Source: Leptolyngbya sp. PCC 6406
GTDB lineage: Bacteria > Cyanobacteriota > Cyanobacteriia > Phormidesmidales > Phormidesmidaceae
Direction of reading: 5' to 3'
Length of the DNA stretch: 64,000 nucleotides
Assembly (NCBI RefSeq): GCF_000332095.2
Contig: NZ_KI913949.1
Location: 3,374,335 to 3,438,334 of the forward strand
Both the position numbers and the translations under genes were made by a program. Of the stretch, positions 39,001 through 47,733 are shown one piece after another (the first letter of the stretch is position 1; each line of letters begins with the position of its first letter). The notes beneath the pieces were generated by a model, which saw only the letters and a list, made by a program, of their open reading frames with translations, was not told the origin of the DNA and searched no databases.

Positions 39001-39228
39001 TTCTAGATAGTCTTCATAGTCTTCAATTTAAGCGGGTTAGCCAGCGCCAACCCATTTATTCAGCTTGTGTGGGTTTGGACTATCGAGTTCTTGACTTGTT
39101 GAAAGATGATTCAGATGGAGTTTCCGACCCCAGGGCAAAAGGCCCAGCAAGGGATCTGGAGCTGTAACGGTAACCTCAGGGGTTCCTGTGGTTGAATGGT
39201 CGGAAGATTCTCCGGCAGGTTCACCCCC

Positions 39229-39993
39229 ATGGCGATTATTGCTCTCAAGGCTTGGTATTTAGAACAGTATGAGCCCGTCAGCGAGCTAGAGGCCCGCTCC
39301 CATGACCTGCGCCTCAGTCGCAACAGCTTGCTCAAATCCGGATTGCGGGCTGACTTCCTGGATGACAGCGACAGCCTGCGCCAAGCCCCTTGGTTTCAGC
39401 GCTACCTAGCGGGGGAAACCGTGGAGTTTTATATCGAGGGCAGTGGCAGCTATGCCATCTCCAATATTGATTTGCTTAGTCACGAGATCTATTTCACCAA
39501 GCGAGATACCCTGGCTCAGTTAGAGCCGACTATTTTCTTCTGTTATCAGACGGCCTACAGTGCCTCGGGGGTGCTGCTCAGGGAGGCACTGGAGGCGCTA
39601 CTGGCGGAGGTGAATCCGCGATCGCGCCTTACCCTCACCCTAGAGGAATCCCATCGTCCGGGAGCCGAGCCTATTCGGCGTAACAGCCCCCTGATGCGGA
39701 AGCTACGCCAGTCTCTCCTGTTCATTGCCGATGGCACCGCGATCACCCAGATTCCTGGCCCGCCCCCCCTAGCGATTCCCAGTCCCCAGGTTTGTGTGGA
39801 GATGGGTTATGCCCTCCAGTGCAAGCGTCCAGAGCAAATCATTCTGGCCCAGCAGACCCGATCGGACCTACTGGGGCAGTTTCCCTTTGAGCTACCCGCC
39901 GCCCAGCGCTTGATTTTTGACGGAGCCGCCGACCTCAAGGTTCAACTCCATACCCTTGTCCTCAACCAACTTCAGCGCTACAGCCTACTTTGA
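39229..39993 (+). CDS. Hypothetical protein with nucleotide-hydrolase-like C-terminal domain
   Basis: 254 aa from ATG 39229 (MAIIALKAWYLEQYEPVSEL). Residues ~1-95 (RLSRNSLLKSGLRADFLDD, FQRYLAGETVEFYIEGSGSYAISNIDLLSHEIYFTKRDTL) form a conserved cyanobacterial region. The C-terminal ~140 residues contain LEPTIFFCYQTAYS, LFIADGTAITQI, PSPQVCVEMGYALQ and QIILAQQTR. The NVxxExGYAL-like step after a beta strand recalls TIR-like and nucleoside-deoxyribosyltransferase folds, where the Glu is catalytic. I cannot place it in a named family. No partner gene suggests a defence system. Confidence 0.6.
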   Translation: MAIIALKAWYLEQYEPVSELEARSHDLRLSRNSLLKSGLRADFLDDSDSLRQAPWFQRYLAGETVEFYIEGSGSYAISNIDLLSHEIYFTKRDTLAQLEPTIFFCYQTAYSASGVLLREALEALLAEVNPRSRLTLTLEESHRPGAEPIRRNSPLMRKLRQSLLFIADGTAITQIPGPPPLAIPSPQVCVEMGYALQCKRPEQIILAQQTRSDLLGQFPFELPAAQRLIFDGAADLKVQLHTLVLNQLQRYSLL

Positions 39994-40095: not shown

Positions 40096-40151
40096 AGTTA
40101 GAGGGGGTCAGACCCGTTGCACCACACGTCAAGCACTGTGACGCAATACCC

Positions 40152-40406
40152 TAGTACTCGGCGGCATAAATACTCTAACCGTTCTATCGTGGCACACCTC
40201 AGCCCCTCTCCCTAGCCCTCGCCGCCTGGGAGAGGGGACCGGAAGAAAATGTTGAGCTGGTGCGGCAGAATAGCAAGTCTATTTCAGTCTAGTACTCTGC
40301 GGCGGAAATACCCTGACCGTTCCATCGTGGCACACTCGGCCCCTCACCCTAGCCCTATCCAAAGGGGAGAGGGGACCGGAAAATGTTGGGCTGGTGCGAT
40401 AATAGT
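40152..40406. repeat. Tandem duplication of a ~137-bp unit
   Basis: Unit A starts at about 40152 (TAGTACTCGGCGGCATAAATACTCTAACCGTTC) and unit B at about 40290 (TAGTACTCTGCGGCGGAAATACC, CTGACCGTTCCATCGTGGCACAC). Both continue through CCCTAGCCCT, GAGAGGGGACCGGAA, AAATGTTG-GCTGGTGCG. A decayed third start (ACTAGTATTGCTTGGCGGAAGTATC) is seen at about 40438. No gene is evident in the units. Confidence 0.75.
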
Positions 40407-40610
40407 GGGCTGATTTACGCCCTGCGGTACTAGGTGTACTAGTATTGCTTGGCGGAAGTATCTCTACTATCGGCGCGCAAGCGCCCCGCTTACGACAATC
40501 AGGACGAAATAGGTGCAGGAACCCTTGTGTAACATGCAATTTCCTTTCTGCCCTCCTGCCTCCCGCCTCCTGTGATAAGAAAATCTGACCAGTTAAAACC
40601 CCTAAACCCC

Positions 40611-40639
40611 GTGACATCTCTGAGTCATTAGGCTATATT
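40611..40639 (+). promoter_or_regulatory. Sigma-70-type promoter of candidate sRNA
   Basis: GTGACA at 40611-40616 (5 of 6 to TTGACA), a 17-bp spacer, and TATATT at 40634-40639 (5 of 6 to TATAAT). Transcription would start near G40646, six bases after the -10. The match and spacing are those of a strong housekeeping promoter. Confidence 0.72.
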
Positions 40640-40645
40640 TATCTT

Positions 40646-40708
40646 GTGTGAGGAGCGAACCAAGAAGGGTGCTGAGACGAAACACGGCCAGTCGTCAGCA
40701 CCCTTTTT
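40646..40708 (+). ncRNA. Candidate 63-nt small RNA with Yfr1-complementary 5' end
   Basis: Between a good promoter (40611-40639) and a U-tailed hairpin lies a transcript of about 63 nt with no reading frame worth naming. Its 5' end, GTGTGAGGAG at 40646-40655, is an exact complement of CUCCUCACAC, ten of the eleven bases of the ultraconserved core ACUCCUCACAC of the cyanobacterial sRNA Yfr1 as I remember it. After a ~10-nt single-stranded linker comes the terminator stem (arms 40665-40675 and 40695-40705, with an inner CGA/TCG extension and an 11-nt loop). The promoter, length and terminator are seen in the sequence; the sRNA identity and the pairing partner are inference. Confidence 0.68.
40665..40708 (+). 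terminator. Intrinsic terminator of candidate sRNA
   Basis: AAGGGTGCTGA (40665-40675) pairs with TCAGCACCCTT (40695-40705). An inner CGA/TCG helix follows a two-base bulge, the loop is AACACGGCCAG, and a T5 run covers 40704-40708. This is the strongest terminator signature in the 40-41 kb region. Confidence 0.85.
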
Positions 40709-40804
40709 GCATTTAAAATTTTTTAGCCCCCCTCAAGATTGCAGGGCGCTAGCTCAAGGGTCAGAGCTTGGGGATCTGCGGATTAATAGTGTACCCAGTG
40801 GCCA

Positions 40805-41215: not shown

Positions 41216-41217
41216 AG

Positions 41218-41309
41218 TGACCCGGAGTCCACGCCTGCCCCAAGCATCCCGTAATGCTGCTACCTTCCGGTCCTGACATGATTTGGGCGTTGAGACCGCA
41301 TGGGTCCGA
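41218..41309 (-). ncRNA. ffs: Signal recognition particle 4.5S RNA
   Basis: On the minus strand the sequence contains GTCAGGACCGGAAGGTAGCAGC, the universally conserved apical domain of bacterial SRP RNA bound by Ffh. The two ends can pair (GACCC near 41306 with GGGTC near 41219), with complementary segments between, making the single long hairpin of the ~95-nt bacterial form. A T-run follows the 3' end on the minus strand (AAAA at 41212-41215 of the given strand). Exact ends are estimates. The RNA targets nascent membrane proteins to the Sec machinery. Confidence 0.93.
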
Positions 41310-41452
41310 GTCATTTCTACGATAACACTTCATCCCCCATCTCTGGGAACTGTATCTCTGGGTCTCTGGGAACTGTTGCAACGAGAAATTGGTATCCCCC
41401 ATGGCGTTCCCTCCAGAAGCCATCTTCTAGAATCAGCCTATTCCCTGTAGGC

Positions 41453-42529: not shown

Positions 42530-44545
42530 CTAGCTCGCATCCCCCACCAGCACAAAGGCAGACCAGTTGCGCGGATCGGGAAACTGGGCCTGGGTGGCTA
42601 GCATTGCCCGTCGGAGGGCTTGGGCCTTCTGCCCCGTTGCCACCCAATCTTGATAGAACGCCTCCATGAGAGTGGCGGTGGCGGTGTCCGGTACCTGCCA
42701 CAGAGAGACCACCACGGTATTAGCCCCGGCCACCAGAAAAGCCCGCGTCAGGCCGACGACCCCATCCCCTGTGATGCGACCCCGGCCCGTATCACAGGCG
42801 CTCAGCACCACCAAATCTGCCCTTAAGTCCAGGGTGGCAATTTCCGCCGCCGTCAGCCAGCCGTCGTCGGTTGCGGTGGGGGCCAAAGCCAGTACCCCCG
42901 GAGCCGACACCCGCACCACCCGTTCTCGCGCTAGGGCGACAGCGGCATCCACGCCGTTGATTTGAACATTACCATCGACGATGATCCCCCCCGGTTCAAA
43001 AAAGACCCCGCCATCGGTGGCGCGGGGGGCGTTGGCATCGACAGGTAGGCCAAACTCATTCAACCGGGAGTCGAGGTTGAGGAGGCCGTGGGTGGCTAGG
43101 TGAATGATGCCCTGGGTTGGCATCTGCTGAACCACAGCGGTTTCTGTGGCTTGATCGCGGATCAGGGGGTGGGTGTTAAGCAGCCGTGCGATCGCGGTGG
43201 CTTCCTGTTCCGCACCGGGGAGGGGAGGCAGATTGGGGGAGGGACTCTGGAGATCAGGGGGTAAACGGGGCATCTCCACCGGGTTACCCACAACGAGACT
43301 ACCCTCCCCAGGCAGGGCATCATTTTCACTAATCAAGGCTAAGGTTTGCACCGAGGAAGCCAGGGCCAGGGTGTGCTCCTCCATCAGCGTGGGGCCGTTC
43401 TCCGCCTGAAGGGCGGCAAAGGGCACTAAAAATAGGGGTCCATGGGGAATAAAAGTGACCAGGGCTTCGGGATCGGCGGGCAACAACTCCGCGATCGGGG
43501 CAATCAGCATCCGGTGGAGTGACCGGAGGGGCAGGGGATTGGAGGCGGGTAGGTCATCGGTGACCCGCCGATCTGTGGGGAAAATACCCAGCCCGCGACT
43601 GTCAAGGCCCAGAGCGGTTCGGGTATTGGCCACCAGATTTTCTAGGGGAGAGGGGTCGATGGCGGTGGCGGTGGGATTGGCACGGAGGGTTTGCCAAAAG
43701 GGACTCAAGGGTAGGTTGCGGAAGGCAATCGCACCACTGGGGGAAACCACCCAAATGAATAGATGGGTTTCCACATCCACCTCGTTCCCCAGCACCCGCC
43801 GCCCATCCCCCAGAGCGGAATAGATGACTAGGGTGGTGTTCTGGCGGCGGGCCACTGCTCGGATTTGGTCTACGGTGAGGGTCGGGATACTGCCCGCGCG
43901 CCGCTGGGAGGTCAGCACCTCTGCTAAGGCCCGTGCCCGTCCCCGCTCCGCCATTTCCAGGGCCGCCTCTATGTGACCCTGGGCCACTAAAACCCGCTGC
44001 ATCAAGCCATAGCTATGGGCCTGTTGGTCAAACAGGGTGACGCGATCGAAATCATCCACCTCTTCTCGCGCCCGAATCGCCTCCCAGGCCGCTAAAACCC
44101 TGGTCAGGACTCTCTCGGCGGCGTTGTAGTTCCCCGTGTGGAAATAGGCTAGGGCCAGGTTACTCAGGGCACTGTAGCTGGCCTGTCCACTGGCTTCGAG
44201 GGATTCCAGGATGGGCACTGCTGCGCCGTAACGCTCTGTCAGTAGGTAGATCCGCCCCAGGTTGTGCAGAACTTGGGGTAGCAAGATCTCATCGTCGGTA
44301 GCCTCTATCCGTAGGCGCTCTAGGGCGGTGAGATAGCCCGCTTCGGCTCTGGCATAATCCCGGTTATAAAACTGCTGCTCACTTTGCAGCGTGAGATCAA
44401 AGAGATCATCGCTGACCTGGGCCAGGGAGACAGTTGCGGTCGCCCCGAAGTCTATCGGTCCCCAGAGGCCAGTCCAGAGGGGCAGTGCAATCGCGATCAC
44501 CACCACCCCAGCCCAAAACCGCCATTTCCCTAATCCCCGCACCAT
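42530..44545 (-). CDS. TPR and CHAT-domain protein (caspase-like)
   Basis: 671 aa. The first ~35 residues form an uncleaved anchor or signal (WAGVVVIAIALPLWTGLW). Residues ~55-205 are tetratricopeptide-like repeats (DYARAEAGYLTALERLR, NLGRIYLLTERYGAAVPIL, NLALAYFHTGNYNAAERVL). The CHAT domain covers ~330-670; the dyad is visible as IIHLATHG (His, ~residue 481) and VVLSACDTGRG (Cys, ~581). CHAT proteases belong to clan CD with caspases and separase; in cyanobacteria most are of unknown function. There is no CRISPR or gasdermin gene next to it. A periplasmic or membrane-anchored location is suggested by the N-terminus. Confidence 0.92.
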   Translation of the reverse strand: MVRGLGKWRFWAGVVVIAIALPLWTGLWGPIDFGATATVSLAQVSDDLFDLTLQSEQQFYNRDYARAEAGYLTALERLRIEATDDEILLPQVLHNLGRIYLLTERYGAAVPILESLEASGQASYSALSNLALAYFHTGNYNAAERVLTRVLAAWEAIRAREEVDDFDRVTLFDQQAHSYGLMQRVLVAQGHIEAALEMAERGRARALAEVLTSQRRAGSIPTLTVDQIRAVARRQNTTLVIYSALGDGRRVLGNEVDVETHLFIWVVSPSGAIAFRNLPLSPFWQTLRANPTATAIDPSPLENLVANTRTALGLDSRGLGIFPTDRRVTDDLPASNPLPLRSLHRMLIAPIAELLPADPEALVTFIPHGPLFLVPFAALQAENGPTLMEEHTLALASSVQTLALISENDALPGEGSLVVGNPVEMPRLPPDLQSPSPNLPPLPGAEQEATAIARLLNTHPLIRDQATETAVVQQMPTQGIIHLATHGLLNLDSRLNEFGLPVDANAPRATDGGVFFEPGGIIVDGNVQINGVDAAVALARERVVRVSAPGVLALAPTATDDGWLTAAEIATLDLRADLVVLSACDTGRGRITGDGVVGLTRAFLVAGANTVVVSLWQVPDTATATLMEAFYQDWVATGQKAQALRRAMLATQAQFPDPRNWSAFVLVGDAS

Positions 44546-46012: not shown

Positions 46013-46380
46013 AAATTAATTGAAATCTGGTCTAAACCCCACCATTTTGGGAATCGGAGTTTTGAGTCCTACCGGCAAAATCTTGCCTCTCCCTTGATGA
46101 ACCAATGGTGTCTATTTGTCAAGGGTAGATTCTCTCGGCGGGCCAGGGCTGGTTGACTGACAAAAATTTTGCATTGGGTCAGGATGGCGATGAGTTTCAG
46201 CCAGCAGGGATGAGGTTTTATCCTTGGTGTTTTATCCTTGGGGTATGGATGTGAGCGGGGTGCCGCTGTCGGCTCTGGTACAGCGGGCGGATAGTTGCGG
46301 TGGCCTCTTTGGGCCGGTTCCTGACCATCGTAGAGCCCCAACCCCCTGCAAATAAGCCCGTGAAATTTAAGGATGGAACC
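46013..46380. other. Intergenic region upstream of dnaE-C
   Basis: 368 bp between divergent genes. It holds the direct repeat TTTTATCCTTGG (about 46211 and 46224) and a GC palindrome (CCGCTGTCGGCTCTGGTACAGCGG, about 46262-46286). A GTG-initiated extension of the DnaE frame from 46300 is possible but adds residues unlike any split intein. An AAGGA at 46369-46373 serves the ATG at 46381. Confidence 0.5.
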
Positions 46381-46488
46381 ATGGTTAAAGTTGTGAGTCG
46401 TCAATCTTTGGGGGTTCAGCCCGTCTACGACATTGGGGTAGCGACGGATCACAACTTCCTGCTAGCGGATGGGTTGGTGGCCTCCAAC
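46381..46488 (+). other. C-terminal split-intein segment of DnaE
   Basis: Codons 1-36 of the gene. The C-terminal block F (VYDIGVATDHNFLL) and block G (GLVASN followed by Cys) are intact, with His in DHNF and the terminal Asn required for succinimide formation. Cys at 46489-46491 is the +1 nucleophile. All known residues for trans-splicing are present on this side. Confidence 0.93.
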
Positions 46489-47733
46489 TGCTTCAACAAG
46501 TCCCACTCTACTGCCTATGGGTTTGTCACATTCCAGACGGCCTACCTGAAGGCCCACTACCCGGTGGAGTACATGGCGGCGCTGCTGACCGCCAACAGCG
46601 GCGACCAGGACAAGGTTCAGAGCTACATTGCCAACTGTATCGCCATGGGCATTGATGTCTTGCCGCCAAATGTGAATAAGTCTCAGGTGGACTTTACGCC
46701 TGAGGGGAAGTGCATTTTGTTTGGCCTATCGGCGGTGCGAAATGTGGGCCAGGGGGCAATCGAGTGTATTCTTGCGGAACGAGAGGCAGAGGGGGGGCCG
46801 TTCAAGTCTTTGGCGGATTTGTGCGATCGCGTTGATCTCCATGCTGTCAATCGCCGCGCTCTGGAGGCGCTGATCCTCTGCGGAGCCCTGGATACCCTAG
46901 AGTCCAACCGCAATCAGCTCATGCAGGATCTAGATCTGGTTCTGGATTGGGCTCAGGGGCGGGCCAAGGATCGGGCGGTGGGGCAGGGCAATCTGCTGGA
47001 TATGCTGGGGGGGTTCGGGAGCGATGACTCAGCCCCCAGTGGTGGCTTTGAGAGTGCCCCCAAGGCTCCCTCGGTGGCGGATTTTGACCCCCAGGAAAAG
47101 CTCAAGCAGGAGAAGGAATTGCTGGGCTTCTATATTTCCGACCATCCGCTCAAGTCGGTGCAAAAGTCCGCCCGCATTCTGGCCCCCATCAGCTTGGGAG
47201 ACTTGGGCAGTCAGCCGGATAATGTCACCCTAAGTGCGATCGCAATGCTGGCCCAGGTGAAGCCGGTGGTCACGAAAAAGGGCGATCGCATGGCCATTGT
47301 GGTGCTGGAGGATTTGACCGGCAGTGTCGAGGGGGTGGTGTTTCCCCGGTCCTATGAGCGCATTGGGCAGTACATCCAGACGGATGCGCGGCTGATGGTG
47401 TGGGGCAAATGCGATCGCCGTGATGATCAAGTGCAATTCATTGTGGATGATGCGGAACCGATTGAGGCAGTGCGCATGGTGATGGTGGAACTAGATCCCC
47501 GTGTGGCCTCGGATATTGAACAGCAGCACCGCCTCCGCAATGTCATTCGCACCAGTCAAGGGGACAACCCGGCCCAGGCGCGGGTACCAGTTGTCGTGGT
47601 GATTGGGGCTAAGCATCAGCGGCAGATCGTGCGTCTGGGAGCCCAGTTCCGGGTAAAGGATCCCGATGCGGCAGTGGCAGCCTTGGCGCAGGCGAAGTTC
47701 AAGGCCACTGCTACCCCGTTGATTCCGGCCTAA
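46381..47733 (+). CDS. dnaE: DNA polymerase III alpha subunit, C-terminal half with split intein
   Basis: 450 aa. The first 36 residues are the C-terminal split intein (IntC): MVKVVSRQSLGVQPVYDIGV, then the DHNFLLADGLVASN end with the penultimate-Asn/Cys splice junction (SN then CFN). The DnaE extein follows: CFNKSHSTAYGFVTFQTAYLKAHYPVEYMAALL, the helix-hairpin-helix region (FKSLADLCDRVDLHAVNRRALEALI) and the OB-fold (VTKKGDRMAIVVLEDLTGSVEGVVF). It needs the N-terminal half, encoded elsewhere, to splice in trans into the replicative polymerase. Start chosen at ATG 46381 with AAGGA seven bases upstream. This split is a cyanobacterial hallmark. Confidence 0.95.
   Translation: MVKVVSRQSLGVQPVYDIGVATDHNFLLADGLVASNCFNKSHSTAYGFVTFQTAYLKAHYPVEYMAALLTANSGDQDKVQSYIANCIAMGIDVLPPNVNKSQVDFTPEGKCILFGLSAVRNVGQGAIECILAEREAEGGPFKSLADLCDRVDLHAVNRRALEALILCGALDTLESNRNQLMQDLDLVLDWAQGRAKDRAVGQGNLLDMLGGFGSDDSAPSGGFESAPKAPSVADFDPQEKLKQEKELLGFYISDHPLKSVQKSARILAPISLGDLGSQPDNVTLSAIAMLAQVKPVVTKKGDRMAIVVLEDLTGSVEGVVFPRSYERIGQYIQTDARLMVWGKCDRRDDQVQFIVDDAEPIEAVRMVMVELDPRVASDIEQQHRLRNVIRTSQGDNPAQARVPVVVVIGAKHQRQIVRLGAQFRVKDPDAAVAALAQAKFKATATPLIPA

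Follow-up and report, generated by a model that had tools for sequence, protein, structure and literature searches.

Results

A single-copy yfr2 gene in Leptolyngbya sp. PCC 6406

Judged from its sequence, the feature at 40611-40708 of the window (the whole 64,000-nt stretch of Leptolyngbya sp. PCC 6406 DNA analyzed here) is an ordinary single-copy yfr2 gene, a member of the Rfam family Cyano-1. We assign a probability of about 95% to the full reading, in which this gene would encode an RNA of ~63 nt that pairs with the small RNA Yfr1 and withdraws it, is protected from RNase E, and has further targets through its loop. A first-pass annotation of the DNA had described an unannotated sRNA and implied that it was new. 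The stretch is recognizable, however, as a match to Rfam RF01701, and pairing of the 5′ ends of Yfr2-5 with the core of Yfr1/Yfr10 was already proposed by Steglich et al. in 2008 (PMC2518516). The family, the partner Yfr1 and the sponge idea have all been published; novelty is low, and this is no new kind of system. The features of the locus are as follows.

40611-40639, + strand: predicted sigma-70-type promoter of yfr2, GTGACA-N17-TATATT (from sequence; the upstream RTGACA is conserved)
40642-40711, + strand: Cyano-1/Yfr2 RNA gene (RF01701 match)
40646-40655, + strand: conserved unpaired 5′ motif GUGUGAGGAG, complement of CUCCUCACAC in the Yfr1 core (from sequence, duplex energy and alignment)
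40657-40660, + strand: GAAC, predicted to lengthen the duplex by pairing with GUUC, which immediately precedes the Yfr1 core (from duplex prediction; GCGAACCA is invariant in the subgroup)
40662-40708, + strand: hairpin and U tail with one bulged G (40694), likely an intrinsic terminator (from fold, compensatory changes and family anatomy)
41216-41312, − strand: bacterial small SRP RNA gene (RF00169, 59.4 bits; Rfam scan), with yfr2 on one side and the gene for a TrkA-type potassium channel on the other

In our Rfam scan of the window and the genome, the RF01701 match at 40642-40711(+) covers the full model (positions 1-69) with 42.1 bits, which barely exceeds the gathering score (41 bits), as is usual for the window's Yfr2 subgroup; the highest Cyano-1 scores came from marine picocyanobacteria-like genomes. 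The link between Cyano-1 and the Yfr2 family is made in a Limnospira paper that cites Gierga et al. 2009 (PMC8400943). Yfr2 RNAs are described as having a conserved, single-stranded 5′ end and a stem that a bulge interrupts close to its 12-nt loop, which is likewise conserved (PMC2662882). By fold and alignment, the window RNA fits this anatomy, with an unpaired conserved 5′ end (GUGUGAGGA), a 12-nt loop with (C/G)GAAACA, a long stem, and a bulge near the loop. It thus resembles Yfr2-5 of Prochlorococcus MED4 and Yfr2a-c of Synechocystis 6803 in its full-length, over-cutoff match, 5′ end, 12-nt GAAACA loop, bulged stem, own (predicted) promoter and unconserved locus. Neither the Cyano-1 model nor the pattern GTGTGAGGA-N5-35-GAAACA found a further Yfr2 copy in the genome, so that this genome has one copy whereas many cyanobacteria have two or more. 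The subgroup further stands out by its GAGCGAACCA segment, which is invariant, and by CGAAACACGGCCAG in the loop region.

Predicted promoter, transcript and fold

The near-consensus promoter seen in the first pass is borne out by 10 of 12 consensus positions, with a −35 hexamer GTGACA at 40611-40616, a 17-bp spacer, and a −10 hexamer TATATT at 40634-40639. Seven bases past the −10 hexamer begins the DNA GTGTGAGGAG (40646-40655), which would form the 5′ end of the RNA. The 63-nt stretch 40646-40708 is predicted to fold into an unpaired 5′ end followed by a long hairpin (−25.5 kcal/mol, z = −3.33; 2 of 200 shuffled sequences fold as well), and it ends in a run of five T in the DNA, in keeping with the short RNA ending in a U-tailed hairpin that had been proposed. 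The 12-nt loop GAAACACGGCCA at 40679-40690 contains (C)GAAACA, the other motif conserved in Yfr2, and is closed by a C-G pair, while the bulged G lies on the 3′ side, three pairs from the loop. The hairpin likely serves as an intrinsic terminator too; it was absent from a general terminator scan, which was limited to loops of 3-8 nt.

Predicted pairing with the Yfr1 of the same genome

Searching the whole genome with the Rfam model RF01116 returned one Yfr1 (48.9 bits). We accepted a locus as Yfr1 when it scored 38 bits or more and lay between guaB and trxA, and this one does both, the flanking reading frames resembling, by eye, IMP dehydrogenase (guaB) and thioredoxin (trxA). The guaB-trxA interval is the usual location of Yfr1 (PMC6778093). 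The core in this genome reads GUUCACUCCUCACACCACA, so the proposed complementarity between the first ten bases of the RNA and the Yfr1 core holds for the genome's own Yfr1. In the predicted duplex, the Yfr2 5′ end and the Yfr1 core form 10 uninterrupted base pairs, one C-A mismatch, and 4 further base pairs (GAAC/GUUC). The duplex score, one of the checks suggested in the first pass, was −24.6 kcal/mol for the first 18 nt of Yfr2 against this core. Of 3000 random 35-mers drawn from the window, not one gave so low an energy (mean −9.9, sd 2.8), and among 3000 random window 18-mers set against the core a single one did so, with an identical energy; it may be the Yfr2 site itself.

The 10-mer by itself is not rare, since CTCCTCACAC occurs nine times in the 5.78-Mb genome, vs. 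seven times for a reversed control. A 10-base match alone is thus not unusual, and what counts is that the complementarity sits at the 5′ end of a predicted structured RNA. A second RNA with the core, comparable to Yfr10, was considered and rejected on this count, the nine CTCCTCACAC sites being at chance frequency.

The same 10-bp run was found in every genome of this Yfr2 subgroup in which Yfr1 was found, and runs of 9-14 bp in most other genomes. Our computed duplex for Prochlorococcus Yfr2 and Yfr1 is interrupted by a bulge where the window RNA has an exact 10-bp match, and an interrupted duplex was also reported for Prochlorococcus (PMC2518516); a perfect run is therefore not required for the mechanism.

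Conservation among relatives and across the phylum

We examined the window's genome together with its relatives, 29 genomes in all; Cyano-1 was found in 27 of them and Yfr1 likewise in 27. The covariance search for homologs suggested in the first pass bears directly on the 5′ segment. In an alignment of 19 subgroup sequences that keep this type of hairpin, the first 17 bases (GTGTGAGGAGCGAACCA) are invariant in 19/19 and the loop is almost invariant. The 13-pair stem is paired in 100% of alignment cells, with 7 pairs changed on both sides, whereas slid controls are at most 64% paired. Homologs that retain the hairpin and lose the 5′ segment, which would have spoken against the original proposal, did not appear in this alignment; the 5′ motif is constant and the stem carries compensatory substitutions. 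Yfr2 genes are further marked by a promoter of their own and an abundant short transcript. The promoter-like sequence is conserved in this subgroup: in all 19 sequences, RTGACA precedes the AGGA of the 5′ motif by 40-43 bases, with a TA-N3-T hexamer in register.

The phylum sample comprised 291 genomes, 141 from Cyanobacteriia and 150 others, with class counts taken from the kinship column and a tally. Cyano-1 was present in 138/141 and Yfr1 in 137/141 Cyanobacteriia, and neither was found in any of the 150 genomes outside the class. All three Cyanobacteriia that had no Cyano-1 match possess a pattern-level Yfr2 that escaped the model or its filters, and one relative (G020) also has a pattern-level copy missed in this way. 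Two genomes of one family (G299 and G211) carry divergent Yfr2-like sequences (GTGAGGAGCGAAC...CGAAACAGGG) that were missed by the Rfam model search.

The position of the gene is not shared. At 31 loci with the window's upstream neighbor, the fetched flanks contained no pattern-level Yfr2, and the window's neighbors were absent from the Yfr2 loci of relatives within ~1.5 kb on each side. This lack of synteny agrees with the published observation that Yfr2 position is unconserved (PMC6778093).

Surroundings of the locus

The gene was said to lie in a gene-free stretch of 1.2 kb. This is true of protein genes, but not of RNA genes, given the SRP RNA gene at 41216-41312(−). Two tandem copies of a ~132-bp intergenic repeat lie just upstream of yfr2 (window 40151-40420). 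This repeat has 48 matches in the genome including the query (e.g. G000:C1:3615001-3615132), most of them at 88-94% identity, and resembles a non-autonomous mobile repeat. By eye, a stretch similar to it is also found downstream of trxA near yfr1 (about 2500-2600 of locus L002).

Several neighboring reading frames could be described. The frame at 39196-39993 encodes a protein of 265 aa that is conserved in cyanobacteria, lacks a Pfam match and has 31 relatives in cyanobacterial genomes, and 42530-44545(−) encodes a protein that combines TPR repeats with a CHAT (caspase-like peptidase) domain. Inspection of the ORF list by eye showed that the frame at 46300-47733 looks like the C-terminal portion of DNA polymerase III alpha and is preceded by an apparent intein C-terminal end, which suggests a split or intein-bearing dnaE.

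Discussion

Yfr2 as a probable antagonist of Yfr1

The idea that this RNA could be a sponge or antagonist of Yfr1 is supported by published experiments in which Yfr2 counters Yfr1 (PMC6778093; PMC6974561). Working with Prochlorococcus RNAs, Lambrecht et al. (2019) pulled down Yfr1 and Yfr10 with Yfr2, showed in E. coli that co-expressing Yfr2 restores a PMM1121-GFP reporter repressed by Yfr1, and found Yfr2 to be protected from RNase E cleavage by Yfr1 or Yfr10 (PMC6778093). Binding of Yfr1 to Yfr2 was shown by EMSA for the Nostoc RNAs in 2020; in Nostoc, Yfr2 is upregulated on nitrogen deprivation and was suggested to trap Yfr1, although the authors still treat the idea that Yfr2 negatively regulates Yfr1 in vivo as a hypothesis (PMC6974561). 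By homology, Yfr2 would have a sponge or antagonist role in Leptolyngbya sp. PCC 6406 too, and we infer its transcription, Yfr1 binding and antagonism in this organism from the Prochlorococcus and Nostoc work.

In the reading we prefer, yfr2 would be expressed from its own promoter as an RNA of ~63 nt, and its unpaired 5′ end GUGUGAGGAG would pair with the core CUCCUCACAC of Yfr1, encoded elsewhere between guaB and trxA. Pairing would withdraw Yfr1 from its mRNA targets and in turn shield Yfr2 from RNase E. Yfr2 probably has targets of its own too, and the conserved loop motif probably provides such further targets.

How far these targets define its function is the point on which a possible, if doubtful, alternative turns. 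Here the main role of Yfr2 would be to act on its own mRNA or antisense targets through the loop and 5′ end, and contact with Yfr1 would mostly neutralize or stabilize Yfr2. A pull-down with Prochlorococcus Yfr2 enriched 404 peaks in 302 mRNAs, Yfr1 binding prevents RNase E cleavage of Yfr2 (both PMC6778093), and the loop varies little more than the 5′ end, all of which fit this alternative. Relief of Yfr1 repression of a reporter by Yfr2 argues the other way, as does the finding that, of the two partners, Yfr1 is constitutive and it is Yfr2 that is regulated (PMC6778093). It is unlikely, on our estimate, that the Yfr2 of this lineage is a single-copy antagonist dedicated to Yfr1, with a longer duplex (10 bp, a mismatch, and 4 bp via the invariant GAAC), unlike the multi-copy, weaker-pairing set of picocyanobacteria.

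Two further explanations deny that a free sRNA is made. Synechocystis Yfr2b and Yfr2c, for which a role as 5′ leaders of downstream genes has been suggested, share start sites with downstream mRNAs, and read-through has been reported (PMC2662882). For the window RNA a leader role is very improbable, as the next likely protein gene on the same strand (the potassium channel) starts ~750 nt further downstream and the SRP RNA gene intervenes on the other strand, the U-tailed hairpin would close the RNA, and neighbors are unconserved among homologs. That a bare intrinsic terminator or chance hairpin stands behind a promoter-like site and is complementary to Yfr1 by accident might be argued from the chance frequency of the 10-mer alone. 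The family match, the invariant 5′ end and loop, and the conserved promoter speak against it, the nearest upstream protein gene ends ~650 nt away, and the covariation and class-wide distribution refute it; its probability is negligible.

Sponge sRNAs of other bacteria are small RNAs that base-pair with another sRNA and lower its activity. Yfr2 shares with them the principle of one sRNA titrating another and no sequence relationship, and differs in its reported mRNA targets and in being a Cyanobacteriia-wide family.

Reading raw sequence can thus recover a published regulatory pair. Small features of this lineage (single copy, extended GAAC pairing, and invariant loop context) may help specialists. 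Comparative genomics confirms that Yfr1 and Yfr2 travel together through virtually the whole of the Cyanobacteriia, and that Yfr2 is most constrained in its pairing segment and loop.
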